A stretch of 64,000 nt of DNA from Janibacter indicus (GTDB taxonomy: Bacteria > Actinomycetota > Actinomycetes > Actinomycetales > Dermatophilaceae), in contig NZ_FWXN01000008.1 of assembly GCF_900176385.1 (NCBI RefSeq), positions 124,001 through 188,000 of the forward strand, written 5' to 3'. The notes under the pieces are model-generated. The model was given only the letters and a program-made list of their open reading frames with translations, had not been told where the DNA came from and searched no databases. This document shows, piece by piece, positions 37,031-62,192 of this stretch. Positions within the stretch are counted from its first letter, which is position 1, and every line of letters begins with the position of its first letter. The position numbers and the translations under genes are program-made.

Positions 37031-37104
37031 GGCCCTGTAGCGCAGTTGGTTAGCGCGCCGCCCTGTCACGGCGGAGGTCGCGGGTTCGAGTCCCGTCAGG
37101 GTCG
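37031..37104 (+). tRNA. tRNA-Asp (anticodon GTC)
   Basis: Acceptor GGCCCTG/CAGGGTC, anticodon loop CTGTCAC, T-arm CGGG-TTCGAGT-CCCG, discriminator G. The serine recombinase reading frame of the element ends inside its antisense strand. Confidence 0.97.
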
Positions 37105-38933
37105 CTCGCTGGTCCGGTTCGGACCGGCTCGGCCAGGTAGCTCAGTTGGTACGAGCGTCCGACTGAAAATCGGAAGGTCGGCGGTTCGACCCCGCCCCTG
37201 GCCACCAGAGCGTCGTTGTTCAAACCACCGACGTTTCCGGTTTTACCCGCCTCGTTTCCGCCCTCGCCCTGTCGGGCGAGGGCGGTTGCTTGTACGCCGG
37301 GGTCGAAGAAGATGTTGAACGGCACTCCGGGTTCCCCTTCAACGACGTCGCCGTCGGTGACGACGAGCCGGTTGAAGAAGGCCTGGTTCGCGATCCGGCG
37401 CAGCGAGTCGTCCAGGCTCATGTAGATCGTGTGCGCGTCACCGGCTAGCGCCAGGCAGTCATCGAGGTGGGCTCGTGCTTGGTCGTACTCGACCTCGCTG
37501 GCCTCGATCCGTGAGTCGAGGAACGCGACCTGACGGCCGATGCGGTCCTGCTCGGACTTCAAGAGGTCAAGGGGTACGGCTCCGGCGTAGTGGGCCTGGA
37601 GCAGTTTGTGGCGTTCGTCGTAGAGCCGGTCGCGTTCGGCGATCTGGGCCTTGCGCTCGGTCTTGGCCGTGGCGTGGAGCCGGTCGAACTCGGCATGGAT
37701 CAGTTCGCGCAGAGGCCCGATGATGTGTGCGGGGATCTGCACGGTGCGGTAGTAGTCCTCCACGGCGGCCTCGACATCGGGCACGAACATGGCCTTGCGG
37801 TTGCAGTTGGTGCGCTTCTTGTGCCGGCCCGAGCAGATGAAGTACGGGTAGATCACCCCGCGGCGGCTCTTGGCGTTGGTCAGGATCAGCCGGGACCCGC
37901 AGATGCCGCAGAACACCGACCCTTTCAAGTAGTGGTCGTGGGCCTGGGTCTTCTCCCCGGAGACCTGGTGCGCGGCGAGCACGGTCTGGACTCGATACCA
38001 GATTTCCGGGGCGACGAGGGGCTCGTGCAGGCCGTCGTAGGTGGCGCCTTTGAACAGCACGTTGCCCTTGTAGTACGGGCTGGACAGCATCCGCTGGATC
38101 GAGGACAGCGCCGGTGGCCGTGCGGGGCGTTTCGGCGTTGCCACCGTGGTCAGCCCGCGGTCGATGAGTTCTTCGCGCAGGGTGGCGGTGGAGTAGTTGC
38201 CGGTGGCGTAGGCCTCGAATGCCCAGCGGATGAGCGGGCCGCGGTGCGGGTCGACCTCAATGGTGCGCAGCTCGCGGCCGAGCTCGTCACGGCGGGTGAC
38301 GTTGAGGTAGCCCATCGGGGCCTTGCCGTTGGTGCCGCCCGTGATGGCTTTCTGCGTCATGCCCTTAGAGACCTCGTTGGCGAGGTTGCGGGAGTAGAAC
38401 TCCGCGATCGTGGACATGATGCCGTGCAGGAGCATCCCGGAGGGGGTCTCGTCGATGTTCTCCGTGGCCGAGACCAACAACACCCCGGCCTCTTTGAGAG
38501 CGAGGTGGATGGCCACGTCGTCAGCGCGGTTGCGAGCCAGCCGGTCGACCTTGTGGACGATGCAGTAGGCGACCGGGTGGGTCTTGACGTACTCGATCAG
38601 CTCCATCAGCGCGGGACGGTCGGCCTTGCGGGCGGACTCGCCCGCGTCGACGAACTCCTCGATGATGATCGCGTTCAGGCCCTGGGCTTTGCGCAGGTTC
38701 GCCTCGCGCTGGGCGGGGATCGAGAAGCCTTCGTCCCGGCCGCCCTTGGATGCCTGCTCCTTGGTCGAGACGCGCAGGTAGGAGACCGCCAGCGTGGTGG
38801 TCTCCCCGATCTGGTCCAGCCCGAACGCCGATCCTGATGAGGGCTCGGGTGCCTGATCGAGCTCGGTGCAGCCGGCCGTGCGGGTCTGGGTGGCGCTGCG
38901 GTGCAGCGAAGCGGGCGCGTTGGTGGTTGTCAT
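37050..38933 (-). CDS. Large serine recombinase (site-specific integrase), frame runs into tRNA antisense
   Basis: 627 residues as read. Resolvase catalytic domain with nucleophile Ser56 in SYLRVSTKEQ and VHKVDRLARNRADD; recombinase domain; zinc ribbon (FCGICGSRLILTN ... FICSGRHKKRTNCN) and a coiled coil (about 440-530), so the full large serine integrase layout. It catalyses element integration/excision. It has no stop before the element edge: from residue about 577 it is translated from the antisense of tRNA-Phe and from about 610 of tRNA-Asp, ending in frame at 37050. The native C-terminus is probably near residue 570. ATG 38933 is the chosen start. Confidence 0.88.
   Translation of the reverse strand: MTTTNAPASLHRSATQTRTAGCTELDQAPEPSSGSAFGLDQIGETTTLAVSYLRVSTKEQASKGGRDEGFSIPAQREANLRKAQGLNAIIIEEFVDAGESARKADRPALMELIEYVKTHPVAYCIVHKVDRLARNRADDVAIHLALKEAGVLLVSATENIDETPSGMLLHGIMSTIAEFYSRNLANEVSKGMTQKAITGGTNGKAPMGYLNVTRRDELGRELRTIEVDPHRGPLIRWAFEAYATGNYSTATLREELIDRGLTTVATPKRPARPPALSSIQRMLSSPYYKGNVLFKGATYDGLHEPLVAPEIWYRVQTVLAAHQVSGEKTQAHDHYLKGSVFCGICGSRLILTNAKSRRGVIYPYFICSGRHKKRTNCNRKAMFVPDVEAAVEDYYRTVQIPAHIIGPLRELIHAEFDRLHATAKTERKAQIAERDRLYDERHKLLQAHYAGAVPLDLLKSEQDRIGRQVAFLDSRIEASEVEYDQARAHLDDCLALAGDAHTIYMSLDDSLRRIANQAFFNRLVVTDGDVVEGEPGVPFNIFFDPGVQATALARQGEGGNEAGKTGNVGGLNNDALVARGGVEPPTFRFSVGRSYQLSYLAEPVRTGPASDPDGTRTRDLRRDRAAR
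37131..37207 (+). tRNA. tRNA-Phe (anticodon GAA), element junction
   Basis: Acceptor GGCCAGG/CCTGGCC, anticodon loop CTGAAAA, discriminator A at 37204 and an encoded CCA at 37205-37207 (the Lys and Glu genes here lack it). The mobile element begins at or just after its 3' end. The gene looks complete, so integration did not destroy it. Confidence 0.96.
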
Positions 38934-39085
38934 GGGTCGCGTTCCTTCCCCAACAGAGGTGGGGCCAACACGAGACAGCACGGGCGGCTGCTCGTGCGGT
39001 GCGAGGTAGGAAAGGAACACGACCCGTGCCGTCCGCGAGGGGCGGGCTGGGTAGGCCACGAAGGGCTAGTAGATAAGACAACGCA

Positions 39086-39112
39086 CCACGGTCGCCGTTG
39101 CGGGCGACCACT
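39086..39112 (-). terminator. Hairpin after the conjugation operon
   Basis: GGTCGCC (39090-39096) and GGCGACC (39103-39109) form a 7-bp stem with a GTTGCG loop, extended by CCA/TGG with one mismatch. It lies 16 bases past the last operon gene (stop at 39125) and before the recombinase, so it could end the operon transcript. The rest of 38934-39124 holds no gene; the recombinase promoter should be here. Confidence 0.45.
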
Positions 39113-39124
39113 GGCTTGGTACGT

Positions 39125-39331
39125 CTACGATTCTACGTCGTGATCAGCGTCGTCGACAGCGGGCGGGTTCTGCGGTGCGGTGTGGGCGCGGTGCTCGTTG
39201 GCGGCGCGGGCCTGGGCCATGCCGATGAAGACCTGGGCGAGCTTGTGCAGATCGGGGCTGTCTCGCAGCTCGGCCTCGATGCGGTAGTCGCGCATCCGCT
39301 GCGGTGGCAGGTTGTTGGTGTTGCTGGTCAT
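39125..39331 (-). CDS. Small hypothetical element protein
   Basis: 68 residues, acidic, helical middle (DLHKLAQVFIGMAQARAANE). No recognised domain. Kept as a gene because its ATG overlaps the stop of the upstream DUF4913-type gene in ATGA and it is the last gene of the long minus-strand operon. Confidence 0.6.
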   Translation of the reverse strand: MTSNTNNLPPQRMRDYRIEAELRDSPDLHKLAQVFIGMAQARAANEHRAHTAPQNPPAVDDADHDVES

Positions 39332-39897
39332 CGCAGTTCTCCAGTGTCCAGATCGATGCCGGCGAAGAACGCTTCCTCGGCTTCACGCCGGGTCGCGACC
39401 TCGTCGAGGACGTACTGCACGAAGTCCGCGTCGCGGTCGGTGATGATGGTGTCCTCGACCGGGGCGGCTGGCTCCTCGCCGGGCCAGGTCGTCTGCCGGG
39501 TCGGCCGGTCGCGATCCAGGCGGGTGCCGCTGGTGGAGACCCACTCGCGCAGCCGCTGGCGGGCATCGGCGAAGTCTCGATGCCAGCCCAGCGGCGCTGA
39601 TGCGTCCTGCTCGGGGTCGTAGGCGCCCAGCCAGTGCAGATGCAACCCGCTGAGCTCCCAGATCAGCTCCTCGTGGCGGTGCCAGTACGGCGGGATGATC
39701 GAGGCGGGCAACCCGTAGGTCCGCCGTAGCCAGGTGACCCACTCGTTCAGTGCGAGCAGTTCGGCTTCCAGATCATCGGAGCTCAGCAGGTTCCAGTTGA
39801 TCGGTCGCGGCACGGCGTGCATATCGGCCTCATCAAACGCGGGCGCCTCCTCGCCATCGGGGTCGGGGGCCTGCTCGCCGGGCGTGAACTCGTCCAT
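39328..39897 (-). CDS. DUF4913-type protein of actinobacterial mobile elements
   Basis: 189 residues. An acidic head is followed by a region rich in Trp and His (EWVTWLRRTYGLPASIIPPY, WHRHEELIWELSGLHLHWLG) and a conserved-looking WHRDFADARQRLREWV block, the style of the DUF4913 family found in actinobacterial plasmids and conjugative elements. Function unknown. It lies between ssb-like and the small last gene. Confidence 0.65.
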   Translation of the reverse strand: MDEFTPGEQAPDPDGEEAPAFDEADMHAVPRPINWNLLSSDDLEAELLALNEWVTWLRRTYGLPASIIPPYWHRHEELIWELSGLHLHWLGAYDPEQDASAPLGWHRDFADARQRLREWVSTSGTRLDRDRPTRQTTWPGEEPAAPVEDTIITDRDADFVQYVLDEVATRREAEEAFFAGIDLDTGELR

Positions 39898-39917
39898 GGT
39901 GGTCTCCTCCTCGTCTC

Positions 39918-40451
39918 TTACAGGCCCATCGAGTGGCCGCTGGCCTGCTGCTGTCGCGGGCCGCTGTTGTCGAACTGCGGCAGACCTCGTCTGGCCGGCT
40001 GGGCCGGTTCGGCGCGTTTGGGGCCGGCGGCCGCGCGGCCGGTGGCGTCCTGGGCTTGGGCGTCGTGGCCGAGGTTCCTGGCCGGGGCCCGGCCCGTGGT
40101 GGTGTTCGGTGTTGCCCTGGCGATGAGGAAGCGGCTGGCCTCGAACTGTTCCTCGGCTTCTCCGGTCCGCTTGTTGACGTAGGGCGCGACGGTGCCCTGG
40201 GCCATGAAGCGGTCCTTCTCGCGCAGGTTCTCGATCCCGAACTTGGCAGCGCCCTTGTAGGCCACGACGTCGTGGAACGTCGTCGGCGAGTTCGTCCACC
40301 CGTTGTCCGGGTCGTAGTGGCGGTGGCGCTGCCCGGCCTTGAAGTACAGGCGCGGGTCGCCGTTCTCGGTGTAGGTCAGGCGCGGCTTGGAGGCCACGAA
40401 GGCGTACATGCTGTCCTTGACCTCTAAGCCGGTCGGGGTTTCGGTGCTCAT
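39918..40451 (-). CDS. Single-stranded DNA-binding-like protein
   Basis: 177 residues. First 110 resemble an OB-fold SSB (FVASKPRLTYTENGDPRLYF, then WTNSPTTFHDVVAYKGAAKF and ENLREKDRFMAQGTVAPYVN), with an extended Gln/Pro-rich tail ending in SGHSMGL. Expected to coat transferred or replicating element DNA. Divergence from chromosomal SSB is high, so it is element-specific. Confidence 0.75.
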   Translation of the reverse strand: MSTETPTGLEVKDSMYAFVASKPRLTYTENGDPRLYFKAGQRHRHYDPDNGWTNSPTTFHDVVAYKGAAKFGIENLREKDRFMAQGTVAPYVNKRTGEAEEQFEASRFLIARATPNTTTGRAPARNLGHDAQAQDATGRAAAGPKRAEPAQPARRGLPQFDNSGPRQQQASGHSMGL

Positions 40452-40520
40452 CGACGTGCTCCTGCTCGCGCGACCACCCCGGTGATGGCCGCTGGTGCAG
40501 TCAGGTGCGCGGGCGCGGCA

Positions 40521-42305
40521 TCACGGCGTATCGCGCCGGCGCAGCAGCGCCTCGACCTCGGTCCGGTCGGCCCGTAGCCGATCGCCGTCGGGCCGATCGG
40601 GCCAGGCGGCCAGATCGGTGATGATCGGTGGTGCCGACCGCAGCAGGGTCACGGCGGTGCCAAACGGCAGCGTCCTGATCCGGTCCGGGGGCAGGACAGC
40701 GATTCGGCGCACCGAGCGCTGGTTCGAGCGGGTGCCGTGGTCTCCGAGGGTGACGCTGTCGGTGTACTCGTCGCGCTCCCCGATGAGACTGCTGAGGTCT
40801 TGGAGATCCTTGCTGTTGGAGGCGCCACCGAGGATGAGCTTGACGATCGCGGCATCCCACAGCGCGTTCGCCTGGTTCTCGTTCCACTTGTCGCGGGCCT
40901 GCGCCAACGATTGCAAGACCGGCAGGGTGGTGATCCCGGTGCCGCCTCCCTCAGCCATGAGCACCGGCAATGACGGCAGTGGACTGAGATTGGCGATCTC
41001 ATCCAGCGCGAGCAGCATGGGCGGGTCGAGCCTCGCGCCCGGTGAACGGGCGGCCATCTGGCGGGCGGTCTCGATCAGGTCCTCCACCAGCGCGGCCACC
41101 AGCGCCGCCGATGCGCCTGCTCCGGCGCCGGTCGCGAGCAGGTAGAGGGTGCCGCGGTCGCGGATGAACGTTTCGGGGTCGAAGTCCTCACCCTGGTCCG
41201 GTGAGACGGCATCGAGGACGCGAGGGTCGGCCAGTGCGGCCAGCGACAGGCTCACGCCCTGCCAGATCGAGTCGCGGGTGCGCGGGTCGGCGTCGATCAT
41301 CGACTCCAGCGACTCGGCCCACCCGGCGGCCGCGTCCGGACTGTTGGTCAGGATCGCCACCGCGTCGCTGGCGGCGGTGGGGTCCAGTGTCCAGCGGAAC
41401 AGCTCAGAAGGCGGACGAGAGTCGAGCGCGGCAGCGTGTAAGAGCGCTTGAAGCGCGGCACGGGTCTTGCCTTCCCAGAATCCTCCGGACTCCACACCTC
41501 CAGCGCTCAGGCCCGTCGCCGAGGCCAGGCCGGTGGCGCGGATCATCGCCGTCAGGGGCGACTGGCATCCTCGGATCGGTGACCAGCGCATACCCGCCGG
41601 CACGCCCTCTGCCAGGTGCTGCGGATCGAAGACCGCGACGGGGCCGACCCGTTCGCGAGCCCGCAGGGTCGCGGTCAGGTTGTCCGGGCGAGTGCTGGTG
41701 GTCACGACCGCGCCCGGTGCGTCCACGATGAACGGGATGACCACATGCAGGCCCTTGCCGCTGCGAGGAGGGCCGAGCAACAGCATCGAGTCCTCGACGC
41801 TGGCCCAGACCTGCTGGCCGCGTGAGCGGCCCAGCCGGTAGCCGATGTCGGCGGGCTTCGGGTGTTCCAGCGACGGGCGCAGGTTGCCGCCGCGGCGCAT
41901 CAGTGCCGTCTCCGAGGCGGCCTGGGCGACCTCGTGCCGGGTCGCGACACCGGCCAGGCGGCGCGGATCGGTCTCGGTCTTGCGGGTGTGGCGGCGCATC
42001 CGCGTCCACACCCAGGCGATCGCGGCGGTCAGCGCCGCCAGGAGAACGACCGTGACGATCCAGTACACGACCGGGTTCAACCCCTCGGCCTCCAGGACTC
42101 GGCCGGGATCGTTCGGGGCGAACAGCACCAGCGCTCCGGCTGCTGGCCCGGCCGCCGGTTGCGCGGCACCGGTCACGAACGCCGTCACCGACCCGGCCGC
42201 CCGCAAGATCAGCGCGAGGGCGAATACCCCGACCAGTCCGATCATCAGCGCGTTGGTCAGCTCGTCACCGAATCCGCCGGTCTGACGTCCTTGCGAGGTG
42301 CTCAT
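40521..42305 (-). CDS. Type IV secretion coupling protein (VirD4/TraG-like)
   Basis: 594 residues. Two N-terminal membrane segments (about 18-38 and 80-100), then a P-loop domain with Walker A LGPPRSGKGLH (178-186) and Walker B region PPMLLALDEIANLSPLPSLP, followed by GTGITTLPVLQSLAQARDKW, as in TraG/VirD4-like coupling ATPases. It hands the relaxosome to the channel. Its ATG overlaps the upstream gene stop in ATGA. 70 bases separate it from the SSB-like gene. Confidence 0.9.
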   Translation of the reverse strand: MSTSQGRQTGGFGDELTNALMIGLVGVFALALILRAAGSVTAFVTGAAQPAAGPAAGALVLFAPNDPGRVLEAEGLNPVVYWIVTVVLLAALTAAIAWVWTRMRRHTRKTETDPRRLAGVATRHEVAQAASETALMRRGGNLRPSLEHPKPADIGYRLGRSRGQQVWASVEDSMLLLGPPRSGKGLHVVIPFIVDAPGAVVTTSTRPDNLTATLRARERVGPVAVFDPQHLAEGVPAGMRWSPIRGCQSPLTAMIRATGLASATGLSAGGVESGGFWEGKTRAALQALLHAAALDSRPPSELFRWTLDPTAASDAVAILTNSPDAAAGWAESLESMIDADPRTRDSIWQGVSLSLAALADPRVLDAVSPDQGEDFDPETFIRDRGTLYLLATGAGAGASAALVAALVEDLIETARQMAARSPGARLDPPMLLALDEIANLSPLPSLPVLMAEGGGTGITTLPVLQSLAQARDKWNENQANALWDAAIVKLILGGASNSKDLQDLSSLIGERDEYTDSVTLGDHGTRSNQRSVRRIAVLPPDRIRTLPFGTAVTLLRSAPPIITDLAAWPDRPDGDRLRADRTEVEALLRRRDTP

Positions 42306-42889
42306 GACAGGCCTCTTGCCGCGATGGTGCCCGAGACCCGCCCGACCAGCAGGACCTCGCCGGCACCGGTCTGGGACGGGTCGACCTGGGCACGGGCGCG
42401 ACCATCGGCAGTAGCGGCGGTGGTGGCGATGGCCAGGGCGACGGTGATCTCTTCTCCGGCGGTGAAACCGTCGGCCGTGACCTCCACCGGTCCTTCGGGC
42501 GTGGCCGGTTCCATCGGTGTCTCGCCTGGTGCCGGCGCCTCAGTCGCCAGTTCGACGAGGGGGTCGGGTGCCGGACGGCGGATGGCGTGGATGAGGTCGG
42601 TGAAGGTGCTGCCGTCGCTCTCGTGGACCTCGACGCGCACGGCGACACGGCGGTCGTCGGTGACCAGATCGAGCATGTCGGCGAACCGGGCACGGGTCCA
42701 CGACTGCTCGTCCTCGGGTGCCGGGAGGTCGATGCCATCGACAGTGACCCTCAGCGTGCCAGGTTCGTCGACGGTGACCACGACGTGCGGCAGACGCACC
42801 GGCGGCGCGTCCTCACGGTCCTGGCGGTGAGGTTTCGGGCTGGTGGTCTGGCGCCGATGGTGGCGGCGGTTCTCATGGCTGCTCGTCAT
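42302..42889 (-). CDS. Hypothetical conjugation-operon protein
   Basis: 195 residues: a basic His-rich N-terminus (ENRRHHRRQ), a region of two or three beta/alpha elements (PHVVVTVDEPGTLRVTVDG) and a C-terminal repeat-like part. No family recognised. Coupled to the coupling-protein gene by ATGA and 40 bases after the VirB4-like gene's 3' end; the frame is open further upstream but would overlap that gene. Confidence 0.6.
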   Translation of the reverse strand: MTSSHENRRHHRRQTTSPKPHRQDREDAPPVRLPHVVVTVDEPGTLRVTVDGIDLPAPEDEQSWTRARFADMLDLVTDDRRVAVRVEVHESDGSTFTDLIHAIRRPAPDPLVELATEAPAPGETPMEPATPEGPVEVTADGFTAGEEITVALAIATTAATADGRARAQVDPSQTGAGEVLLVGRVSGTIAARGLS

Positions 42890-42929
42890 GAGCCGAAGGT
42901 GCGCCCAGCCTGCCATCACGGCTCGTGGG

Positions 42930-44408
42930 TCAGTCGCGTGCTGCTGCCCGAGAGCTCGTATCGAACAGCTCAAGCTCGGCAGGATGGAGTTGGTGCTGAG
43001 AAAGGAAGGCTCTTTCCTTGATCCGCCACAGCCCCTGCCCGACCGAGAGCGTGGGCAGCAGTTGACGCTCAGTGCCCGTCAGCCCCAACGTCTTGGCGGT
43101 GCTGCCGAGCTGGTCGGATTCCTGGCGGTAGATGATGCGGCACTCGGCGTTGGCGAGCAGGCTGGTCGCCAGGGCTCGGGCCGCTGAGCCTGCATCGCCA
43201 ACGGTCTCCAAGTCGGAGAGCTTGTGGAAGATCAACATGTTGGCCAGGCCGTAATGGCGGGCGAGCCTCCAATGGGAGTCCATGCGTTTGAGCAGGGCGG
43301 GATGGCTCATCAGACGCCAGGCCTCGTCGTAGATGACCCACCGCTGCCCGCCGGCCGGGTCCTGCAAGGCCGCTTCCATCCACGCGCTCGTGCAGGTCAT
43401 CAGCACGCTGATCAAGGTGCTGTTCTCGGTGACCCGGCTCAGGTCGAGACTGATCATCGGCAACGTGGGGTCGAAGGTCTCGGTGCTCGGCCCGTCGAAT
43501 AACCCGGAGAGGTCGCCGCCGACGAGTCTGCGCAGCCCGTGGCCGACCATGCGGCCGTCCTCGGCCAGCCGCCCGTCCGGGTCGTCGGACGGGGCGAGGA
43601 TGCGATCGACCACCTGCGGCAGGATCGGCGTGGAGTTCTCGCGCACCGCCGCGGCCAGGGCGGTGTCGACGCAGGTGTGTTCCAGCGGCGTCAGCGCCCG
43701 CTCCAGCACGGTCGCGGCCAGCGCCCCGATCAAGTCACGGCGGCGTGAGGCGACCTGCACGGCCCATTCCTCATCGGAGATGGTCGATGCCCGGTAGCCC
43801 TCGTCGAGCGGATTGAGCCGGCTGGGCATCCCGTGGCCGAGCTCGATGGCCTTGCCGCCAACCGCGCGGGCGACTCGCGTGTGCTCCCCTTTGGGGTCAC
43901 ACGGGATGTAGACGCGGCGCCCGAACGGCAGACTGCGCGTATACAAGCTCTTGGCCAAGGAGGACTTTCCCGATCCGACGATGCCGGCGACGATGACGTT
44001 GGGGGCGGTGATGATCCCGCGGGCGTAGAGCACCCACGGGTCGAACACGAATGATCCTCCGCTGTAGAGGTCTTGGCCCACGAACACTCCCTGTGGCCCC
44101 AGACCGCCTTCGGCGAGGAAGGGATAGCTCGCCGCGAGGGTGGCGCTGGTGTCCTGGTGGCGCGGCAACCGGAACCGACCCGGCGTGCGCAGGGCCGCCG
44201 GGCCGGGCTGCCCGGCCGTGGGCAAGGTGATGGTGGCCTTCTGCTCGGCCCGCTGCTGGCGGGCCTCCTGCCGGGCAGTCTCGCGGTCGGCTTCTCGTTG
44301 CTCGGCGGCGATCCGGGCCGCGGCGGCCCGGCGCTGCTTGCGGGTCTTGCGTCGCTCGCTGGCCGGGGCGACCAGGACCGCGGTGTGCAGACGCTCCTCG
44401 CGGTTCAC
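42930..44408 (-). CDS. VirB4-like conjugation ATPase
   Basis: 492 residues. A charged coiled N-terminus (Arg/Glu/Gln-rich, 15-60) is followed by the P-loop domain: Walker A VAGIVGSGKSSLAKSL (about 141-156), IPCDPKGEHTR, Walker B QRWVIYDEAWRLM and a late Gln/Arg motif FHKLSDLETVGDAGS. It powers assembly of the conjugation channel. It lacks the N-terminal VirB4 domain, which could be supplied by the separate SCO6880-like protein. GTG start coupled to the next gene upstream (GTGA). Confidence 0.87.
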   Translation of the reverse strand: MNREERLHTAVLVAPASERRKTRKQRRAAAARIAAEQREADRETARQEARQQRAEQKATITLPTAGQPGPAALRTPGRFRLPRHQDTSATLAASYPFLAEGGLGPQGVFVGQDLYSGGSFVFDPWVLYARGIITAPNVIVAGIVGSGKSSLAKSLYTRSLPFGRRVYIPCDPKGEHTRVARAVGGKAIELGHGMPSRLNPLDEGYRASTISDEEWAVQVASRRRDLIGALAATVLERALTPLEHTCVDTALAAAVRENSTPILPQVVDRILAPSDDPDGRLAEDGRMVGHGLRRLVGGDLSGLFDGPSTETFDPTLPMISLDLSRVTENSTLISVLMTCTSAWMEAALQDPAGGQRWVIYDEAWRLMSHPALLKRMDSHWRLARHYGLANMLIFHKLSDLETVGDAGSAARALATSLLANAECRIIYRQESDQLGSTAKTLGLTGTERQLLPTLSVGQGLWRIKERAFLSQHQLHPAELELFDTSSRAAARD

Positions 44409-45334
44409 AGTCCCAGCCCTCGATCGCGCTTGACCGCGGCGACACCGCGATGGGCGAACCATGAGCCGTCCCGTCCACTGGCTCCGCGATCGGTCGTGGT
44501 CTTGTGCGTGCTCTCACGGGCGAACGCCGAGGCAGCCGCCCCACGGCCCAGTCCAGCCTGCCCGACTGCCGGGCCGCCAGCAGAACCTGCTGGCCTGCTC
44601 AGCAGCTCGCGGGTCCCGAGCCCCGGTTCGGGCGGGAGCTGGTCGGCCGGGTCGATGGTGTGCTGGCGGTAGAGGGCGACGTGCCCGGCCTGCGGGTTGT
44701 AGACCATCCGGTAGTCGCCGCGGTCGGCCTCACGATCGAGCATCCCGCTGGGCGGATCGTCGTAGACGTGCCCGTTCTCCAACGCGGCGTCGGTGGTCTC
44801 GGTGCCGTAGTCGAAGCCGGTCATGTGGTCCAGACCTGCCTCGACACCGTCGCGGTCGATCACGTCGAGCACCGTGTCGGCGTCCTCGCCCTGGAGGAAC
44901 GCGACGCTGACCCACCGGTGAGCAGGCCCCTGGTGGGTGGGATCTTCGCGCACCGGCGGCAGCGTCTGGGCTGCTTCGTGGCCGAGGGGATCGTGCCAGG
45001 CGATGCGGCTGGTGGCCTGGGAGCCGGCGTCCAGTCGCTCGGTGACGTCGTCGAGCAGGGTGCCGGCCTGGTGCAGCTCATCGGCGGCGGCCAGCGCGTC
45101 GTGAGCGCCGGTGAGGTGATCACCGGCGTCGTCGTGGGCGCGGGAGCGGTGGTCGATGTGCGCGGCGGCGAGCTGGTCGAGGGTCTGGCGCAGTGAGCGT
45201 GTGCTGGCCAGCAGGTCGCCGATCACCGGGTGCAGGTCGCGGGGGTAGTCGAAGTGGCGGGAGGCGTGCGCCAGCCCCCGTAGGGCCTCGGCGGCCTCGG
45301 TGGAGTCGGCGGCGGGATCATAGAACGTCGGCAT
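44405..45334 (-). CDS. Hypothetical conjugation-operon protein
   Basis: 309 residues. N-terminal helical region (LASTRSLRQTLDQLAAAHID) followed by a mixed domain with tyrosine- and aspartate-rich blocks (DDPPSGMLDREADRGDYRMV) and a low-complexity C-terminus. A clear GAAAGG site precedes ATG 45334. I recognise no domain; not a relaxase by motif (no HUH or Tyr-pair that I could find). Confidence 0.65.
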   Translation of the reverse strand: MPTFYDPAADSTEAAEALRGLAHASRHFDYPRDLHPVIGDLLASTRSLRQTLDQLAAAHIDHRSRAHDDAGDHLTGAHDALAAADELHQAGTLLDDVTERLDAGSQATSRIAWHDPLGHEAAQTLPPVREDPTHQGPAHRWVSVAFLQGEDADTVLDVIDRDGVEAGLDHMTGFDYGTETTDAALENGHVYDDPPSGMLDREADRGDYRMVYNPQAGHVALYRQHTIDPADQLPPEPGLGTRELLSRPAGSAGGPAVGQAGLGRGAAASAFARESTHKTTTDRGASGRDGSWFAHRGVAAVKRDRGLGL

Positions 45335-45405
45335 GATGGGCCCTTTCTGGGATCGGTGGTGGGGACGGTCACGGCCCGGTGCCGCGACCACGAACGAGTG
45401 GGGTG

Positions 45406-46878
45406 TCATACGCGCCGGCACAGCGGCAGCGCGGCGGCGGTGAACGCCACGGCCTGCTGACCGACCAGGCGGCGGGTCTCGCAGGAGGACTGGATCGCGG
45501 CCTGCTCGATCGCGGAGACGGCGGCTTCGAGCTCGTCGACGGTCTCGGCGGAGACCGAGACCAGGCCCGTGTAGCGCAGCACGCCGTGTCCTGCGGTCAG
45601 GTCGCTTTCCTGGCGCAGCACGTCCTGGTATTCGGCGGTTTGCCCGGCGTCCTCGATCTGTCCGATCCGGGCTCGCTGGGAGGCGTCGGAGACGTATTCG
45701 ACCTTCTTCTTGCGGATGTCGCGGACGGCCTGGTCGGTGCGCATCGGCGTGCAGATCAGCGAGAACGAGCGTTGGATGCCCGTCGTCAGCAGCAGCGGCG
45801 CCAGGAACGTGCCCGGATACACCTGCGAGCGTGGCCATTCGCTGATCCACAGCACGGCGTGGTGGGCCGAGTCGGTCCGCAGCCGCGTCCAGGTCTCGGT
45901 GACCGCGACCGGCCCGGCCGTGGCCAGGTCGTGGCCGAGCTCGCCGTGGCGTTCCAGGGTCGCTGCGATCGCCGGATCGTAGGCCGAGCGCAGGACGACG
46001 GCGATCTGCCCGGTGCCGAGCCAGTCGCCGGGGTTCAGGTCCGCCGCCCGCAGTGCCGCGGTCACGGTGGTCATCTCTTGGCGCAGCACGGCAGCGGCCC
46101 CGCGGATACCGCCGCCGGCGGTGCGTATCTGGCGGGCGGCGGCCTTCATGTCCAGGCTCAGGCTGATCGTCGAGGCGTGCCGCTCACCGGCGGGTCCGGC
46201 CCGGTCGATGAGCTCGGCGTAGGTCCTCGCCGGCCAGGACCCGTCATCGGTGCCGTGTTCGGACCACCATTCGGCCAGCCCCTGCCCGGCGTCGGGCAGG
46301 GTGCGCTCCAGCACCTGCACCGTCGCCACCCGTCCGGAGCGGCAGACCGTGGCCAGCGCCCGCCCCCAGCTGGTGACCCGGCGCTGTTGCTCGGCCGGGT
46401 CGAGGAGCACGAACGCTGGATGGGTGACCTCGACGATCGCGGTCAACGTGGACTGGTGCGGGTCATGGATCATGCCCGCCCCGGTCTCGGGGTCGACGTA
46501 CTCGCGCAGTCGGGCCATGTCACCGGGCAGGGCGAGCGTGCCCTCCGGGCGCGGCACGACGATCCGGCGACGGTAGGCCAGCTGCCCGATGGTCGTGCGC
46601 CAGGCCCACCAGATGACGACGGGCAGCCACTCCACCAGGGGCCGGCCGGCCACGGGCACCCAGGTGATGGCCGCGGCGACCAGCCAGATCGGCGCGGTCA
46701 TCGCGATCAGCAGGCCACCACCGGCGTAGAACGCCCACACCAGCGAGGCTCCGCCGATGCCCAGGGCGACGAGCTGGGAGACCGACAGGCCCAGCAGGAC
46801 ACCCCTGCGCGTCAACCGGGAGAACTTCACCGGGACCAGCTCGGTGCCCGGCGTCGAGCTGTCATCACTCGCGGACAT
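45406..46878 (-). CDS. SCO6880-family conjugation protein
   Basis: 490 residues. Two N-terminal membrane helices (about 28-46 and 50-72) resemble a PrgI/VirB3-like segment (RLTRRGVLLGLSVSQLVALG), followed by a soluble region like the N-terminal part of VirB4 (STLTAIVEVTHPAFVLLDPAEQ, SWGRALATVCRSGRVATVQV). Actinobacterial elements place such SCO6880-type proteins upstream of the VirB4 ATPase; the two may work as a split VirB3-VirB4. 71-base gap to the gene downstream. Confidence 0.8.
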   Translation of the reverse strand: MSASDDSSTPGTELVPVKFSRLTRRGVLLGLSVSQLVALGIGGASLVWAFYAGGGLLIAMTAPIWLVAAAITWVPVAGRPLVEWLPVVIWWAWRTTIGQLAYRRRIVVPRPEGTLALPGDMARLREYVDPETGAGMIHDPHQSTLTAIVEVTHPAFVLLDPAEQQRRVTSWGRALATVCRSGRVATVQVLERTLPDAGQGLAEWWSEHGTDDGSWPARTYAELIDRAGPAGERHASTISLSLDMKAAARQIRTAGGGIRGAAAVLRQEMTTVTAALRAADLNPGDWLGTGQIAVVLRSAYDPAIAATLERHGELGHDLATAGPVAVTETWTRLRTDSAHHAVLWISEWPRSQVYPGTFLAPLLLTTGIQRSFSLICTPMRTDQAVRDIRKKKVEYVSDASQRARIGQIEDAGQTAEYQDVLRQESDLTAGHGVLRYTGLVSVSAETVDELEAAVSAIEQAAIQSSCETRRLVGQQAVAFTAAALPLCRRV

Positions 46879-46881
46879 GGC

Positions 46882-48288
46882 CTACTCCTTCCCCGAGGGC
46901 GTCTGAGCCGATCCGCCGCCAGCCGGCGGAGTCGGATTGGTCGGCAGCGGCGGCTGGGGCGCTGGAGGCTGCGAGGACGGCGGCTGGGAGGCCGGGGGCT
47001 GGCCGCCCTGGTTGTTCTGGCCGTTCTGGTCGGCGCCATCGGAGGCGCTCTCGGCCTGCCCGGCCACGGCCTGGCCGGCCTTCGGTCCCGCGGTGGCGGC
47101 CTTCTTGGCGACCTCCGCGCCGATGACCACCGCCGCGGCGGGGCCCGCTGCTGCCGCGGTGCCACCCGTGGCGCCTCCGCTGGTGCCGGCGGTCGCGGTG
47201 CTCGATCCGGTGGGAGTACCCGCGGGTGGTTTCGCCGGGGTCGGGCTCTGCTTGGGCCCACCACCACCCCCACCACCACCGCCTCCGCCGTCGCCGGGGC
47301 CGCCGCCGTCCTTGCCGCCGTCGAGGACCTTCTTGGGCTGATCGCCGCCGGGCTTGCCGGGCGTCGGGACGGGCCGGTTGAGTGCCTGCTTGGCCTCCTG
47401 CTCGGCGCCCATCGCGTGATACAGGTCGAAGCCCATGAAGGAGAGGAACTTATAGGTCATGTAGGGCGCGAACCCGGCGATCGCCATCAGCACGATCCCA
47501 GCCAGCGGATCGCTCACCGAGGCCAGATCACCGTCGATAGGGGCGGCAACCTGGGTGACCGCAACCAACAGGATCACGACCAACACGAGCTTGGACAGCA
47601 CCAGGGCGATGACGAACATCGCCCACTTGCTGATCCATCCGCGACTGGCATCCCAGGACGCGCCGGAGAACGCCAACGGGGCCAAGGCGATCGTCACCAG
47701 CAGCAAGGCTTTGCGCACCAACAGGCTCAGCCACACGATCGCGGCCGCCGCGATCGCCAGGCCGGCCAGGAAGATGGTCAGGATCGCGGCGACTCCCGGA
47801 GCGCCCATGTTCAGCGCGGTCAGGCCGACGACGAGCGCGGCGATCTTGTCGCCCAGGGACTCGGTGGTCTCTCCGGCGGCCTGGATGATCCCGACACAGA
47901 GCTGGTCGACAATCTCCAGGGCCAACGCGGTCACCGTGATCACCACGAACGACCCGAGCACCGATTTCGCCAGCCCAAGGGCCGCGCGGGACAGGCCACC
48001 AGGTTCTCGGCGGATCATGGCGGTGATGAGCTGGAAGCAGAAGAACAGCAGCATCAAAAAGGCGGCGATCCCGAACACGAGGTTGTAGACCTCGACGTAC
48101 TCCGGGCGCTGGACGTCGACCAGAGTCGTGGTGTCGAACACCGTCCAGACCGACTCGAACAGCCACGCCGCCGCTTCGCCCATCGCCTGGGCGAGCCAGT
48201 CGAACGGTGCCGAGATGAGGCTGGCAGCGGCTTCGCCCGCGGTATCGCAGACGGTTGAGATGACGGGAACATCGCACACACCCATCAC
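46882..48288 (-). CDS. TrbL/VirB6-like channel membrane protein
   Basis: 468 residues. Start GTG 48288 (ATG three bases later possible). About seven membrane helices between residues 65 and 285, then a long Gly/Pro/Ala-rich cytoplasmic or extracellular tail including a poly-Gly run (near 335-345) and Gln/Pro repeats (PPASQPPSSQPPAPQPPLP). The hydrophobic core fits TrbL/VirB6 inner-membrane channel parts. The 3' end lies 3 bases before the SCO6880-type gene. Confidence 0.8.
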   Translation of the reverse strand: MMGVCDVPVISTVCDTAGEAAASLISAPFDWLAQAMGEAAAWLFESVWTVFDTTTLVDVQRPEYVEVYNLVFGIAAFLMLLFFCFQLITAMIRREPGGLSRAALGLAKSVLGSFVVITVTALALEIVDQLCVGIIQAAGETTESLGDKIAALVVGLTALNMGAPGVAAILTIFLAGLAIAAAAIVWLSLLVRKALLLVTIALAPLAFSGASWDASRGWISKWAMFVIALVLSKLVLVVILLVAVTQVAAPIDGDLASVSDPLAGIVLMAIAGFAPYMTYKFLSFMGFDLYHAMGAEQEAKQALNRPVPTPGKPGGDQPKKVLDGGKDGGGPGDGGGGGGGGGGGPKQSPTPAKPPAGTPTGSSTATAGTSGGATGGTAAAAGPAAAVVIGAEVAKKAATAGPKAGQAVAGQAESASDGADQNGQNNQGGQPPASQPPSSQPPAPQPPLPTNPTPPAGGGSAQTPSGKE

Positions 48289-48313
48289 GGACCTCCAAAG
48301 ATGATGGGTGAGC

Positions 48314-48583
48314 TCAGACGCCCTGGCCGACGTTCCAGAAGAAATTGATCAGCGTGACCGACGCGCCACACACGATCGCCGCGCCGCAGGAGACCAGAAC
48401 GCCGATCTTTCCCCTCCCGCTCAGATGCGGATTGCTGGAATTGGAGCCGTAAGCCCAGATAATCGCCGAGACGATCAGGGCGAGGACGCTGAGGATGAGA
48501 CCGATGGTCATAGTCGCGCCCACGATCGTGCGCAGCGCCTCGATGCCCGGCAGGCCTTCGCTATTGGGGTCGATGTCAATCAC
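48314..48583 (-). CDS. Small two-helix membrane protein, DUF6112-like (copy 1)
   Basis: 89 residues from GTG (V-I-D-I-D-P-N-S). Two membrane helices (about 25-45 and 62-85), similar to its neighbour copy 2 in layout (xPNSEGLPGIEALRTIVGAT versus DFEGLGGIGDLQEVVGAAL). VirB2-pilin-sized; may be the pilin/channel subunit. 25 bases before the TrbL-like gene. Confidence 0.7.
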   Translation of the reverse strand: MIDIDPNSEGLPGIEALRTIVGATMTIGLILSVLALIVSAIIWAYGSNSSNPHLSGRGKIGVLVSCGAAIVCGASVTLINFFWNVGQGV

Positions 48584-48662
48584 GGCAGAACTCCCTTGGT
48601 CGAGAAATGGGTCGGTTCTGCTGCGAGGTGAGCGCGGCTGCCCTCGGCACAAGGACATGACA

Positions 48663-48689
48663 ACGCCCGCCCCGGTCCGGGGCGGGCGT
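48663..48689 (-). terminator. Near-perfect hairpin between the two DUF6112-like genes
   Basis: ACGCCCGCCCCGG (48663-48675) and CCGGGGCGGGCGT (48677-48689) form a 13-bp palindrome around one base. It follows the stop of copy 2 (minus strand) by 25 bases and precedes copy 1, so it could attenuate or stabilise the pilin-like mRNA. Confidence 0.65.
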
Positions 48690-48713
48690 CACGGGTGCGC
48701 AACGGTGCTGGGT

Positions 48714-48980
48714 CTAGAGGGTGCCGCCGAGGTCGATGAGCCAGTTCAGCCAGGTCACCGCGGCACCGGCCAGGATCGCGCCGCCGAGGGCAACGAGGGT
48801 TCCGGCGCGTGCCTTCGCGGCCGCCTGGTAGTTGCCGGTCGCAGTGGCGATCGCCCAGATGATGCCCGAGACGATCAGCATCAGCACCGCGACGATCAGC
48901 GCGATCATCAACGCCGCACCGACGACCTCTTGGAGGTCGCCGATGCCACCCAAGCCCTCGAAATCGGGAAAGACATCCAT
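48714..48980 (-). CDS. Small two-helix membrane protein, DUF6112-like (copy 2)
   Basis: 88 residues. Begins MDVFPDFEGLGGIGDLQEVV, two membrane helices, ends ... NWLIDLGGTL. A paralogue of copy 1 and of the DUF6112 family seen in actinobacterial conjugation operons. No signal peptidase site evident. Most likely a structural subunit. Confidence 0.75.
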   Translation of the reverse strand: MDVFPDFEGLGGIGDLQEVVGAALMIALIVAVLMLIVSGIIWAIATATGNYQAAAKARAGTLVALGGAILAGAAVTWLNWLIDLGGTL

Positions 48981-49220
48981 CGCTCATCCACCCCCGCAGG
49001 GCGTGGTCCGGCACCAGCAGTAGACAGCATCCATGCCCCTCAGGTGCGCCGGCCGCCCGTCATCACCCCCACGGCCCCTCGCAGGCGCAGTATGCTCAGG
49101 GGGCACGCCGCCCGGATCGGGCACGACAGGGTGGGGCAACGCCGCCGCACCAGCCGAAACAGCGGCGCGACGGCACCGGCCTCCGACGCATGATTCGTGC
49201 ATCAGATGCAACTTCGGAGA

Positions 49221-50876
49221 TTATTCGGCGACAGTGACGTGCAGGTGGTCGAAGTGACCGCCGGTAACATTGTCCGGGTCGTGCATGCCACCGCCGCCGT
49301 AGTCACGCCACCCCTCATCGTCGCGGCTGAGACTCCAGATCTGTCCTTGCCAGATCAGGTACTCCACGCCCAAGGCCTCGGCGTTGTCCTTCATCCAGTT
49401 CGTGACCTCCCAGCCGGCCTCCAGTTGCGAGGGCGTCGGGTACTGGCCGATGGCATTGCCGAAAGCGATGTCGCACGCGCGGCCGAGCGGATGCTCCGAG
49501 GACTGTCCGGGCCGCGGCGACCAGCACGCCCAGGAGGTCTGGGGGTACCGACCGAGCGTCTGGTCGTGGAGGTGGAGCAGCCGGGCGGTGATCTGCCCGT
49601 CGCTGGTGGGGTCATCGACCATCCGGCTCGGGTCGCCCTCGATGGGGTCGGGCTCGCCGCCCGGTGTGGCCCCGTCCTCGGTGACGCAGCCCTCATCCCC
49701 GTCCGGTGCGCCGGTCTCGGCCTCGGGCAGGCCCGCGGCATCATGCGAGTTCAGCCAGGCGGCAGGATCGACATGGTCCCCGTCGGCGCCGCCCTCGCGG
49801 ACCTCGAAATGCAGATGGGGTCCCGTGCTCATGCCCGAGCTGCCGACATCGGCGATGTGCTGGCCCGCGCTGACCTGATCGCCGACGGTGACGTGGATGC
49901 CATCGGCCCAGGAGTGGATGTAGGCGGTCGCGACGGTGGAGCCATCGATGGTGTGCTCGATGACGACGATCCCGCCGCTCGCGTCGCTGTACTCGGCGAC
50001 GGTCACGCTGCCATCGGCGGCGGCCAAGATCGGGGTTCCGTCCGGGGCGGCGAAGTCGCTGCCGGTGTGCATCGTCTGCTCGCCGGTGATCGGATGCGTC
50101 CGCGGACCAAAGGGCGAGGTCGCCACCCAGGTGTCCTCCGGCAGCGGGAACACCACGCCCGAGGAGCCACGCTCCGCAGGGGCCGCCGCAGTCACGGCGC
50201 GACCAGCAGGCTCGACGGTGGGGCCGCCGCTGGCCGAGAGCGCGTCGAGGATCGTCTCGGCGACCGGATCGTAGTCGCGGTAGCGGTCCGGGTAGGCACT
50301 GACCTCGACCGCCTGGGCCGCCTCGGCGGGGTCCATCTGCTCCCAGCCGGGAATGTCCACCAAGCCGCGCGGTGACCCATGGTTGGGCCCGTCGGGTCCG
50401 CCGTAGAACGCGGACGCCTGATAGGTGGGGTCCATGAGGTCTTCGACCGATCCCCACCCCGATTGCGGGCGCATCTGGAACAGTCCGAGGCTGTCGTTGT
50501 CGCTGCCGTCCCCGTCGTTCGGGTAGTCCGCGCTTTCGGGGTAGGCCGAGGTGTTGGCAAGCTGGCGCAGGGTGGATTCGGTCAGGGCCGCCATGAGGGC
50601 GACCTTGATGCCAGGCCGGCCCACGCCCTCGATCCCCGAGCCGGTCTCGATGATCGTGGCGGCGTGCGTGAGCTGGTCGTGGTTCAGGGTGAAGCGCTCA
50701 CCGGAGCGGGTCTCCACGTCGAGCTCGTCGGGCACCTCGCCGACCTCGACCGAGCCGCCGGGCACGGTGCAGTCGGCAGTGGCGGCGGGGTTCATCAGCA
50801 GCCCGACGCCGACGAGTGCGAACATCGGGCCGAGCAGCAGCACGGCGATGACAACCAGGGCGAGCTTCTTGGTCAC
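49221..50876 (-). CDS. Peptidoglycan hydrolase: transglycosylase-like plus M23 endopeptidase
   Basis: 551 residues. One N-terminal signal anchor (6-28). Residues about 55-200 resemble a lytic-transglycosylase/lysozyme-like domain (ALMAALTESTLRQLANTSAY, then SDNDSLGLFQMRPQSGWGSV); about 255-370 is an M23/LytM zinc peptidase (MHTGSDFAAPDGTPILA, HLHFEVREGG); the C-terminal region (430-551) has an ARB_07466-like block (SSEHPLGRACDIAFGNAI). Two lytic activities would open peptidoglycan for the conjugation channel (VirB1 role). Confidence 0.88.
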   Translation of the reverse strand: MTKKLALVVIAVLLLGPMFALVGVGLLMNPAATADCTVPGGSVEVGEVPDELDVETRSGERFTLNHDQLTHAATIIETGSGIEGVGRPGIKVALMAALTESTLRQLANTSAYPESADYPNDGDGSDNDSLGLFQMRPQSGWGSVEDLMDPTYQASAFYGGPDGPNHGSPRGLVDIPGWEQMDPAEAAQAVEVSAYPDRYRDYDPVAETILDALSASGGPTVEPAGRAVTAAAPAERGSSGVVFPLPEDTWVATSPFGPRTHPITGEQTMHTGSDFAAPDGTPILAAADGSVTVAEYSDASGGIVVIEHTIDGSTVATAYIHSWADGIHVTVGDQVSAGQHIADVGSSGMSTGPHLHFEVREGGADGDHVDPAAWLNSHDAAGLPEAETGAPDGDEGCVTEDGATPGGEPDPIEGDPSRMVDDPTSDGQITARLLHLHDQTLGRYPQTSWACWSPRPGQSSEHPLGRACDIAFGNAIGQYPTPSQLEAGWEVTNWMKDNAEALGVEYLIWQGQIWSLSRDDEGWRDYGGGGMHDPDNVTGGHFDHLHVTVAE

Positions 50877-50895
50877 AGCAGGGCCTCTCGTGCTC

Positions 50896-51573
50896 TCAGC
50901 GCAGGGGGTTGTCGAGTTCGGACAGGCGCAGCAGATGACAGGAGTCGGCGTCCTCGGGGCAGGCGAGGAAGATGGTGAACGCCACCGAGTGCTCGGATGA
51001 GACCGGATCGTCCTGCCAGATGCCTTCTCGGTGCCGGGTTCCCTCGATCGTGATCGCGGTGGCGCCCTCGGGGAGCTGGCCGGGCTGGGCTTGATCGACG
51101 GCCTCGGCCCAGGCTTCGGGGACGGCGGCGGTCTCGATGCTCAGGTACTGGCTGGTGGAGTGCTTGCGCAGCTCGATCCACGCTTCCCGCGAGGGCAGGT
51201 AGGTCGAGATGTCGGAGGCCAGCCCGGCCTGCTCGTACCCGGTCGGGTCGCCGACCTCGACGATCACTGAGCTGTAGTCCGCTGGCATCAGGCCATCGCC
51301 GGTATCCCAGGTGAACAGGGCTTCGGCCACCGACCGGGCGAAGCCTTCGGGGTCGTCGGTGGCGATGATGACCGGCAGTCGTGGCGTGAGCTTCTCGCTC
51401 GGCGGCGGGCCCACCGTTCGCTCCGACGGTGCCGGTGCCGGCGGGGTGTCGGTGTCGGGTGGGCCGATGAGCAGGCCGTAGACGCCGACGGCGATCAGCA
51501 CGAGCAGGGCGATCCCGGCGATGATCCAGGCGACCAGCCGGCGGCGGGCGTGGGAGTCGTCAGTGGTGTTCAT
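50896..51573 (-). CDS. Hypothetical single-pass membrane protein
   Basis: 225 residues. One N-terminal helix (about 14-34), Pro-rich linker, then a soluble domain with a WAEAVDQAQPGQLPEGATA block and two cysteines (ACPEDADSC). Topology resembles VirB8/TcpC-type conjugation proteins, but no family motif is clear. 19 bases upstream of the hydrolase gene. Confidence 0.6.
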   Translation of the reverse strand: MNTTDDSHARRRLVAWIIAGIALLVLIAVGVYGLLIGPPDTDTPPAPAPSERTVGPPPSEKLTPRLPVIIATDDPEGFARSVAEALFTWDTGDGLMPADYSSVIVEVGDPTGYEQAGLASDISTYLPSREAWIELRKHSTSQYLSIETAAVPEAWAEAVDQAQPGQLPEGATAITIEGTRHREGIWQDDPVSSEHSVAFTIFLACPEDADSCHLLRLSELDNPLR

Positions 51574-51613
51574 GACGCCCAGGTACGTGCGTGGCTCCCT
51601 GGGCCGGCCGGGC

Positions 51614-52651
51614 TCAGATGGCGTGCAGGTGCCCGCGTGCGGTGCGGGCCTGCTCGTCGCCGAGTGCCTCTCGTGCGGCACGCAGTTGCTCGGCGAAGTC
51701 GGCGGTGCCAGTGGCCACGCCCAGGAACATCTCGGCCTGCTCGTCGGTGAGCTCTGCGGCCAAGGTGGCTGGGTCGTAGTGGGTCCACCAGTCGGTCAGT
51801 TCCTCGAACGTCGTCAGGAAGGCCCGCACCGGCCAGCGGCCCGGCACGCTCTGCCGGGGCCGGCTGGGCTGCCCGCTACGGGGCCGCTTGGTCGCTTCGG
51901 CGGCTCGCACGCGGGCCAGGGCCTGCTTCGCCATCTCGTCCAGGTCGTCCTGGCGGCGCTCGGTGGCCTGACCGGCCAGGGAGCGCAGGCGCTCGTAGAT
52001 CGGGTGGACGGGTGCGCCGGCCTCGATCTGTTCGAGCCCGGTCGCGGCCTCGGCCCGGACATGCTCGGCTGTGGCCGGGTCTTCGAGGAGCTGCTGGAGG
52101 AATCCGGTGCGCTCCAGTGTCGTGTAGGAGGCGCGGCCGGTGATCAGCCGGGCGGCCTGTTCGCGGGCGGTGCCCATCGCCCCGGCTGGAGCCTCCGCGG
52201 CGTCAGCCGGTGACGGTCCTGCCAAATTGGCAGGACCGCCGTTTCCGGGCTGGTTGTCGCTGCTGAACTGTGTGGCCTTCTTCCGCCGGGCAGCGTCCTC
52301 GGCCATCAGCGTCTTGGTCTCGCGGTACAGCGCGGCGGCCTCGGTCTGGGTCAGCGCCTTGTGATGGTTGTTGTCGTCCTGCTCGGCCAGCAGGTGCCCG
52401 AGGCGGTCCGAGACGCCCGAGCGAATCCATACCCCGGTCGTGCGCCAGTTGAGCTTCTTGATCGCCGTGAGCCGGCGGTAGCCGCAGACCAGCACGCCCT
52501 GGGAGGTCAACGTCAGGGGCTGGAGCAGCCCGTGCCGGTCGATCGAGGAGGCCAGCGCGTCGATGTCGCCCAGGTCGGTGCGATGCCGGGTGCCCACGAC
52601 AATCGCGTCGACGGCCCAGTCGAGCTCGATGTGTCCGTCACGCGAGCCCAT
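51614..52651 (-). CDS. ParB-like N-terminal domain protein
   Basis: 345 residues. ParB/Srx-type nucleotide-binding motif at the N-terminus: IDALASSIDRHGLLQPLTLT, then VLVCGYRRLTAIKKL. A helical domain follows, with an alanine-rich tail. ParB-fold proteins of mobile elements serve partition or regulation. No parA is visible nearby, so stabilisation by partition is uncertain. Overlaps the gene upstream by 14 bases. Confidence 0.8.
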   Translation of the reverse strand: MGSRDGHIELDWAVDAIVVGTRHRTDLGDIDALASSIDRHGLLQPLTLTSQGVLVCGYRRLTAIKKLNWRTTGVWIRSGVSDRLGHLLAEQDDNNHHKALTQTEAAALYRETKTLMAEDAARRKKATQFSSDNQPGNGGPANLAGPSPADAAEAPAGAMGTAREQAARLITGRASYTTLERTGFLQQLLEDPATAEHVRAEAATGLEQIEAGAPVHPIYERLRSLAGQATERRQDDLDEMAKQALARVRAAEATKRPRSGQPSRPRQSVPGRWPVRAFLTTFEELTDWWTHYDPATLAAELTDEQAEMFLGVATGTADFAEQLRAAREALGDEQARTARGHLHAI

Positions 52652-53513: not shown

Positions 53514-53601
53514 GATCGCGGCACCTCCTGGGAGGCAGGTGCGCACGAGGGCCCTCAGCGGGCGCTCGGGGATGGTTAGTCTTCGCATGGCCGGTCACCG
53601 C

Positions 53602-58333: not shown

Positions 58334-58350
58334 TACCTGCCAGGGGTATA
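58334..58350 (+). promoter_or_regulatory. CsoR-like copper operator 1
   Basis: ATACCTGCCAGGGGTAT, an imperfect palindrome of the ATACC...GGGTAT type bound by CsoR repressors. It lies immediately upstream of candidate -35 sequences (TTGACT 58355-58360; TTGTAC 58360-58365). Confidence 0.65.
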
Positions 58351-58367
58351 CCGTTGACTTGTACACG

Positions 58368-62181: not shown

Positions 62182-62192
62182 TCCACCAGCGT

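Follow-up and report, generated by a model that had tools for sequence, protein, structure and literature searches.

An integrase frame that has no stop codon within its own element raises the question of how the gene ends when the element is circular, and of how far its product depends on where the element has landed. Such a frame lies in the window analysed here (64,000 nucleotides, G000:C15:124001-188000, G000 being the window's own genome). It runs on the − strand from the ATG at 38933 to a stop codon at 37050-37052 (627 aa), contains no stop within the element and is convergent with a + strand cluster of tRNA-Glu, tRNA-Asp and tRNA-Phe at 36922-37207. The first-pass annotation had the frame read through antisense tRNA-Phe, the spacer and part of tRNA-Asp as far as 37050, and its coordinates were right. 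The junction that it put at about 37204 was likewise correct, as the shared core CCACC spans 37202-37206. Moreover, the last 50 or so residues are indeed host-supplied: residues 1-577 are element-coded, residue 577 being the GTG at 37205-37203, and the final 50 aa (578-627) are read from the host side of the core. The features around the junction are as follows.

37031..37105, + strand: tRNA-Asp(GTC), overlapped antisense by the integrase frame (ARAGORN)
37050..37202, − strand: host-supplied C-terminus, residues 578-627 plus stop, an antisense reading of tRNA-Phe, the spacer and part of tRNA-Asp
37131..37207, + strand: tRNA-Phe(GAA), the target, its 3′ end being attB (ARAGORN)
37183..37189, + strand: T-arm GGTTCGA of tRNA-Phe, which would serve as the zinc-ribbon motif of attB; its outer base is 19 bp away from the core centre (37202)
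37202..37206, no strand: attL core CCACC (GGTGG on the integrase strand, containing the GTG of residue 577); the attR core, at G000:C15:209958-209962, has the same sequence
37203..38933, − strand: integrase body, residues 1-577, a large serine integrase (Resolvase, Recombinase and zinc ribbon); the closest relatives' homology stops at residue 577
37220..37226, − strand: attP left-arm motif GGTTTGA, which also codes for integrase residues G-L-N and has its outer base 24 bp away from the core centre (37202)
39125..39331, − strand: 68-aa ORF directly upstream of the integrase gene, no Pfam match

Pfam identified PF00239 (Resolvase), PF07508 (Recombinase) and PF13408 (Zn_ribbon_recom), each above cut-off and in the order of a large serine integrase. 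All three lie within residues 49-396, with the junction falling later, at 577. No Pfam match to the tyrosine integrase family was found in the window form or in the full-length forms described below; serine recombinase domains were found instead.

Element ends and the circular form

The tRNA cluster was searched for in 58 genomes (57 relatives and the window's own; E ≤ 0.001) and was matched, whole or in part, in all 58. In the closest same-genus genome (G004, L003) the empty site reads CCTGGCCACCGGAGC, and the sequence after tRNA-Phe reads CCTGGCCACCGGAGCCAAGACGAAGGGCGCC. In G016, G022, G027, G030, G031 and G051 tRNA-Phe and tRNA-Asp are 1.6 to 40 kb apart, and some of these genomes contain partial copies of tRNA-Phe; these split clusters are perhaps other insertions at the same cluster. 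A first candidate for the far end, at host flank C15:214629, was rejected as it shared words of chance length and lay beyond host-like genes. The true far end was located through the hairpin that comes after the tRNA: the host sequence CCACCGGAGCTTCGTCTCGAAGGGCGCC, closely similar to the empty site of G004, begins at C15:209958, 48.76 kb away, and beyond the element the host reads CCACCGGAGC, followed by a hairpin similar to that of the empty site. The element is therefore 48.76 kb long, and its attR, at C15:209958-209962, lies outside the window. AttL and attR have only 5 bp, CCACC, in common, and because this core is so short a 15-base pattern from the tRNA-Phe 3′ end, searched against the whole genome, gave one exact match and no further copy to mark attR. 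The core forms the 3′ end of tRNA-Phe, where the first-pass annotation had placed the attachment site. The final A of the encoded CCA of tRNA-Phe comes from the element; a G stands there in the G004 empty site and on the far host side.

The part of the element that lies in the window contains the following.

37207..64000, no strand: left part (26.8 kb) of the conjugative element, which measures 48.76 kb in all and continues to C15:209962
40521-42305: TraG/VirD4-type coupling protein (TraG/T4SS-DNA_transf)
42930-44462: weak AAA_10/TraG P-loop match, below cut-off
49221-50876: M23 peptidase
54785-55975: Prim-Pol
55723-56862: ArdC/M78 (ArdC-like protein)
59606-61876: P-type metal ATPase (metal-transport cargo)

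A TrwC relaxase is also present in the element. With integrase, relaxase and type IV coupling protein between a defined attL and attR, the element is, on gene content, an integrative conjugative element. The 68-aa ORF upstream of the integrase gene was matched at 47 of 78 integrase loci (a few of them counted twice), and its product may be a partner of the integrase or a directionality factor.

When the ends were joined in silico, the integrase frame stayed open and gained 153 codons from the far element end, giving a total of 730 aa. The suggestion that a circle would carry a different C-terminus is thus borne out in the reconstructed junction, which places attP inside the integrase gene; integration, as reconstructed, replaces the tail by host residues. 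The tail matched HTH_23, HTH_7 and HTH_38 in Pfam and was modelled (mean pLDDT 71) as two three-helix units at residues 56-92 and 104-140. Compared with known structures, this double-HTH model gave weak matches to a CRISPR repeat-binding protein (2lvs, E 2.9e-3) and to Tc3/Pax paired domains.

A natural gene in which integrase and HTH tail are fused had been predicted, and two were found among 48 named loci with close integrase relatives, both continuing into the tail at exactly the predicted codon. In Nesterenkonia ebinurensis MD2 (L224) the product, 708 aa from its ATG, reads ...GLNNDLLV before and DLRREFENP... after the junction; in Gulosibacter chungangensis KCTC 13959 (L235), at about 705 aa, GLPRRFSN... 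follows the same ...GLNNDLLV. Both contain the three integrase domains. HTH_23 scores 23.6 in L224, just under the Pfam cut-off of 24.6, and passes in L235. No tRNA was found in either 7.6-kb locus. The tail of L224 is nearest to the tail of another subfamily (83%), and the locus suggests a tandem pair of elements. Three partial natural fusions were also recovered (L202, L203 and L097), with L203 and L097 at contig ends. The L202 fusion lacks its N-terminal part and has a neighbour that, by eye, resembles an insertion-sequence transposase; its junction reads ...RHQAGRVSVLSSSV followed by DLAEGL..., and that of its relative L209, located in tRNA-Ala, reads ...RHQAGQVSIFSSYV followed by ELRGFEPLT.... 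A phylum-wide search gave two matches that crossed the junction, in G515 and G624, and both were rejected as fusions on inspection.

Integrated relatives and recognition of tRNA genes

The C-terminus was expected to vary with the insertion site, and a nearly identical element bears this out. Brachybacterium equifaecis JHP9 (G164, L211), from another family, carries the element at 99.957% identity over 48,826 bp (18 mismatches, 3 gap openings), but in tRNA-Lys, where the integrase ends after 19 host residues versus 50 in the window. A 99% identical integrase in a Microbacteriaceae genome (L210) likewise sits in tRNA-Lys. Judged by this near-identity, the element has recently been transferred between families. 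Such copies are hardly to be expected of an element killed by its own integration, and an element 99.957% identical in two hosts and two tRNA genes points to an integrase that still recombines, although rescue by another integrase is an alternative.

We extended the comparison to an order-level sample, in which 54 of 396 genomes contained an integrase relative (E ≤ 1e-60). The 3′ ends surveyed, 62 distinct ones, come from fetched loci (best matches and chosen pairs) rather than from all matches. An antisense tRNA follows in 57 of the 62, covering 11 isotypes, an arrangement that is more than chance. The integrase frame is open into the tRNA in 48 of these 57, through the common T-loop frame in 44 and another frame in four, and it remains open for 11 to 155 codons beyond the tRNA 3′ end. 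In the other nine it is not open; some are decayed, and several tRNA-His cases have TGA immediately after the core. Of the five ends without a tRNA, two are close to or at the end of a contig, one belongs to a natural fusion, one adjoins the tail of another element, and one fits none of these. By locus, 38 of the 48 named loci show an antisense tRNA; at the remaining 10, two genes are full-length, four are partial and four end where ARAGORN called no tRNA. Integrase ends follow whichever tRNA has been hit, and therefore no conserved stop exists near residue 570, which would have spoken against the first-pass reading; most homologues read into their own tRNA, and in two natural genes the frame runs on into the HTH tail.

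With the joined C-terminus as query, a search across the phylum recovered integrase relatives in 47 of 396 genomes but few tails; of 29 loci examined, 27 had an integrase match and 22 of these an antisense tRNA within 600 nt. The divergent integrases of this sample (L117-L145) also end at antisense tRNAs, including tRNA-Ser, which is missing from the closer set, and the habit is therefore older than this integrase subfamily. No tail relative was found in phages and one weak match in plasmids, integrase matches in phages and plasmids were all under 60% identity, and the viral contigs searched gave no close integrase relative. Some loci depart from the simple arrangement. In L178, L196, L054 and L102 the integrase frame is lost with the tRNA still adjoining, and these are apparently remnants. 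In Ornithinimicrobium murale (L213) the integrase reads into a tRNA-Arg/Pro/Val/Ile cluster, just past which lies the HTH tail of a second element, and two elements seem to flank one tRNA block. In L103 (G271:C1:2410500-2416500) the integrase match stops about 175 bp short of another element's tail, which is in a different frame; the short segment between the two also adjoins a tail in G415.

The use of so many tRNA genes can be related to the positions of short motifs near the core. As reconstructed, attP forms an imperfect palindrome about the core, with GGTTTGA arms ending 24 bp off centre on both sides. At the L224 and L235 junctions the right-arm motif occupies the same position but is somewhat altered, including a different outermost base in L235. 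The arm motif on the integrase side stands at −24 in 67 of 85 distinct attL sites, a count anchored on the tRNA T-arm taken to end at +19 (in the window, the 19 was measured directly from core and T-arm); it is elsewhere in three, and 15 lack the strict motif, several of them having AGTTC there. Judged by position, the motif is about 5 bp nearer the core in attB than in attP, as in large serine integrases. The LI/A118 enzyme has its attP outside the integrase gene and is not known to target a tRNA gene or to have an HTH tail. Its zinc-ribbon motif is described at attP positions 16-24 and attB positions 11-19, the same 5-bp shift, and our positions agree with these within about 1 bp, our core-centre count being possibly off by 1 bp relative to that numbering (Rutherford et al., PMC3783163). 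The tRNA T-arm would therefore be located where the attB zinc-ribbon motif belongs.

The T-arm stands at a fixed distance from the CCA end, a feature common to tRNA genes. This would be why one integrase can use both Phe and Lys genes and its family eleven isotypes.

Phase and selection of the tail

If integration parts the tail from the integrase, relatives should carry it at the far end of their elements. We found a tail relative (E ≤ 0.01) in 23 of 30 integrase-bearing genomes, two of the 23 being weak (E > 0.001), and no tail homologue at that threshold in the other seven. Same-contig pairs of integrase and tail were picked by eye. In 26 of them the two parts share a strand and the tail comes upstream, as required (two of these pairs have one integrase in common); in one pair, on a single contig of G382, the strands are opposite. 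These 26 and a further six matched across contigs by guess make 32 pairs; when these were read at codon level, the two ends proved to agree in phase at the core in 21. Four others have lost the integrase frame and seven have no placeable far core. Phases were read from printed codons, as an automatic search for shared words often chose other words, and for one in-phase pair (G415) the attL side was read from another comparison.

Fifteen tails align without internal gaps, whilst those of G329 and G120 break near residue 110. Over 12 pairs, dN/dS was 0.10-0.39 in the HTH part and 0.22-0.83, a weaker constraint, in tail residues 13-49, dS being near saturation in some pairs. Five pairs have an integrase counterpart; their HTH values of 0.21, 0.39, 0.22, 0.16 and 0.27 compare with 0.23, 0.30, 0.32, 0.14 and 0.19, in the same order, for the integrase core. 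Constraint on the HTH part is similar to that on the enzyme core, and the tail is therefore kept by selection, though it is cut off at every integration.

We consider it highly probable that this is a serine integrase with attP in its own ORF, in which integration swaps an HTH tail for a host peptide. On the circular element the integrase, of about 730 aa, would consist of catalytic, recombinase and zinc-ribbon domains, then attP, then the 153-aa double-HTH tail. A tRNA gene would be recognised through its likeness to an attB half-site, which the T-arm provides together with the CC of CCA; the outer end of GGTTYGA is 19 bp away from the core centre in the tRNA, as against 24 bp in attP. By exchange of strands at this core the tail-coding DNA would pass to the far element end and the integrase frame would be joined to the antisense tRNA. 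The integrated enzyme keeps its catalytic, recombinase and zinc-ribbon domains, has lost the HTH tail and carries a host-dependent peptide. The positions of the sites, the open frame, the swap, the natural full-length genes and the selection on the tail are all seen in the sequences, whereas the role of the tail is inferred. The tail may have its role on the circle, where it might promote attP x attB or repress the integrase gene, to give two examples; integration would end this mode, and the core enzyme that is left could still excise the element later with the help of a partner. Loss of the tail may thereby switch integrase activity or direction, and the meaningful event is probably the loss of a conserved double-HTH domain rather than the gain of a host peptide.

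Four other explanations of the locus were weighed against this one. That the long ORF is a sequencing error, or a pseudogene with a lost stop codon, is practically excluded: the stop is also absent from two 99-100% identical integrases in other genomes and from dozens of homologues, which already refutes it, and we found nothing in its favour. It is very improbable that the host-supplied peptide is what matters, adjusting the integrase to each site, a reading that the wording of the first-pass annotation allows. The peptide does differ between targets, but the tRNA that happens to be hit determines how long it is and what it reads, and several tRNA-His targets yield none. The peptide is unlikely to have a role.

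The other two alternatives concern the tail and carry more weight. The far-end ORF might be a small HTH gene in its own right that starts near residue 43 and codes for a regulator or a directionality factor, with the read-through of the integrase incidental. Twelve of the 15 tails do have ATG or GTG at residue 43, and both HTH units are located after it, so separate translation from there is possible. The tail of the window element has no such codon, though, and residues 13-49 are constrained too, if more weakly (0.22-0.83, 12 pairs); moreover, phase with the integrase is kept in the 21 pairs intact at both ends and the natural genes L224 and L235 have the tail contiguous with the integrase, and we regard this origin as improbable. 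It is also unlikely, though a little less so, that attP merely happens to fall in the 3′ part of the gene, the swap having no effect on recombination and the tail being unrelated to the choice between integration and excision. Host tails of 11 to 155 codons suggest an enzyme tolerant of any C-terminus; against this, purifying selection acts on the tail much as it does on the enzyme, even though every integration splits the gene into its two halves.

Known systems and meaning

A literature search, mainly of open-access papers, found among the entries listed no report of a serine integrase with attP inside its own gene. Mycobacteriophages such as BPs show integration-dependent immunity, in which attP lies inside the repressor gene and integration changes its product; attP is within a gene there as here, but that gene is a repressor and not an integrase. 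IntP of the Myxococcus phage Mx8 is a tyrosine recombinase, unlike the serine integrase described here, and to our knowledge it has neither a promiscuous tRNA-targeting clade nor an HTH domain swap. As here, its gene is described as spanning attP, with integration altering the C-terminus (Tojo et al. 1996), and Mx8 and SSV are listed as cases of integrases extending across attP (PMC4383910). The archaeal 'suicidal' integrases of SSV1, pTN3 and pT26-2 similarly have attP in the integrase gene, which integration splits, but these are tyrosine recombinases whose catalytic part is parted from the rest, whereas here the three domains stay together (PMC8371274). The present element thus shares with the SSV type an attP within the integrase gene and the disruption of that gene, and has neither a tyrosine fold nor a separated catalytic domain. 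Where it treats self-disrupting recombinases, the same 2021 review calls them exclusively archaeal (PMC8371274).

Serine recombinases at tRNA genes are themselves called rare, with actinobacterial AICEs in tRNA-Leu and phage phiRSM1 in tRNA-Ser as examples; these resemble ours in type and target, and the passages on them mention neither attP within the integrase gene nor a C-terminal swap (PMC3218068). One source gives serine recombinases in tRNA genes, at the point where it touches on them, as not known (PMC4383910). Engineered fusions of integrase and RDF offer a likeness to the proposed role of the tail, as the fused domain changes the preferred reaction, but they are artificial and permanent, whereas here recombination itself removes the domain (PMC5737554). 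By this analogy, a natural C-terminal domain could be doing much the same.

In summary, these data add a bacterial serine-recombinase counterpart to the integrases that alter their own gene. We tentatively entertain, at somewhat short of even confidence, the broader hypothesis that a wide actinobacterial clade of tRNA-targeting serine integrases self-edits, loss of the paired HTH turning an integration form of the integrase into an excision or maintenance form, with the position of the element as the directionality signal. Two natural forms of one enzyme make the control of directionality testable by comparison, and the tRNA targets suggest integrases that are usable on many conserved tRNA genes. 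Moreover, odd recombinase C-termini of the 'GFEPxT' type may be antisense tRNA.
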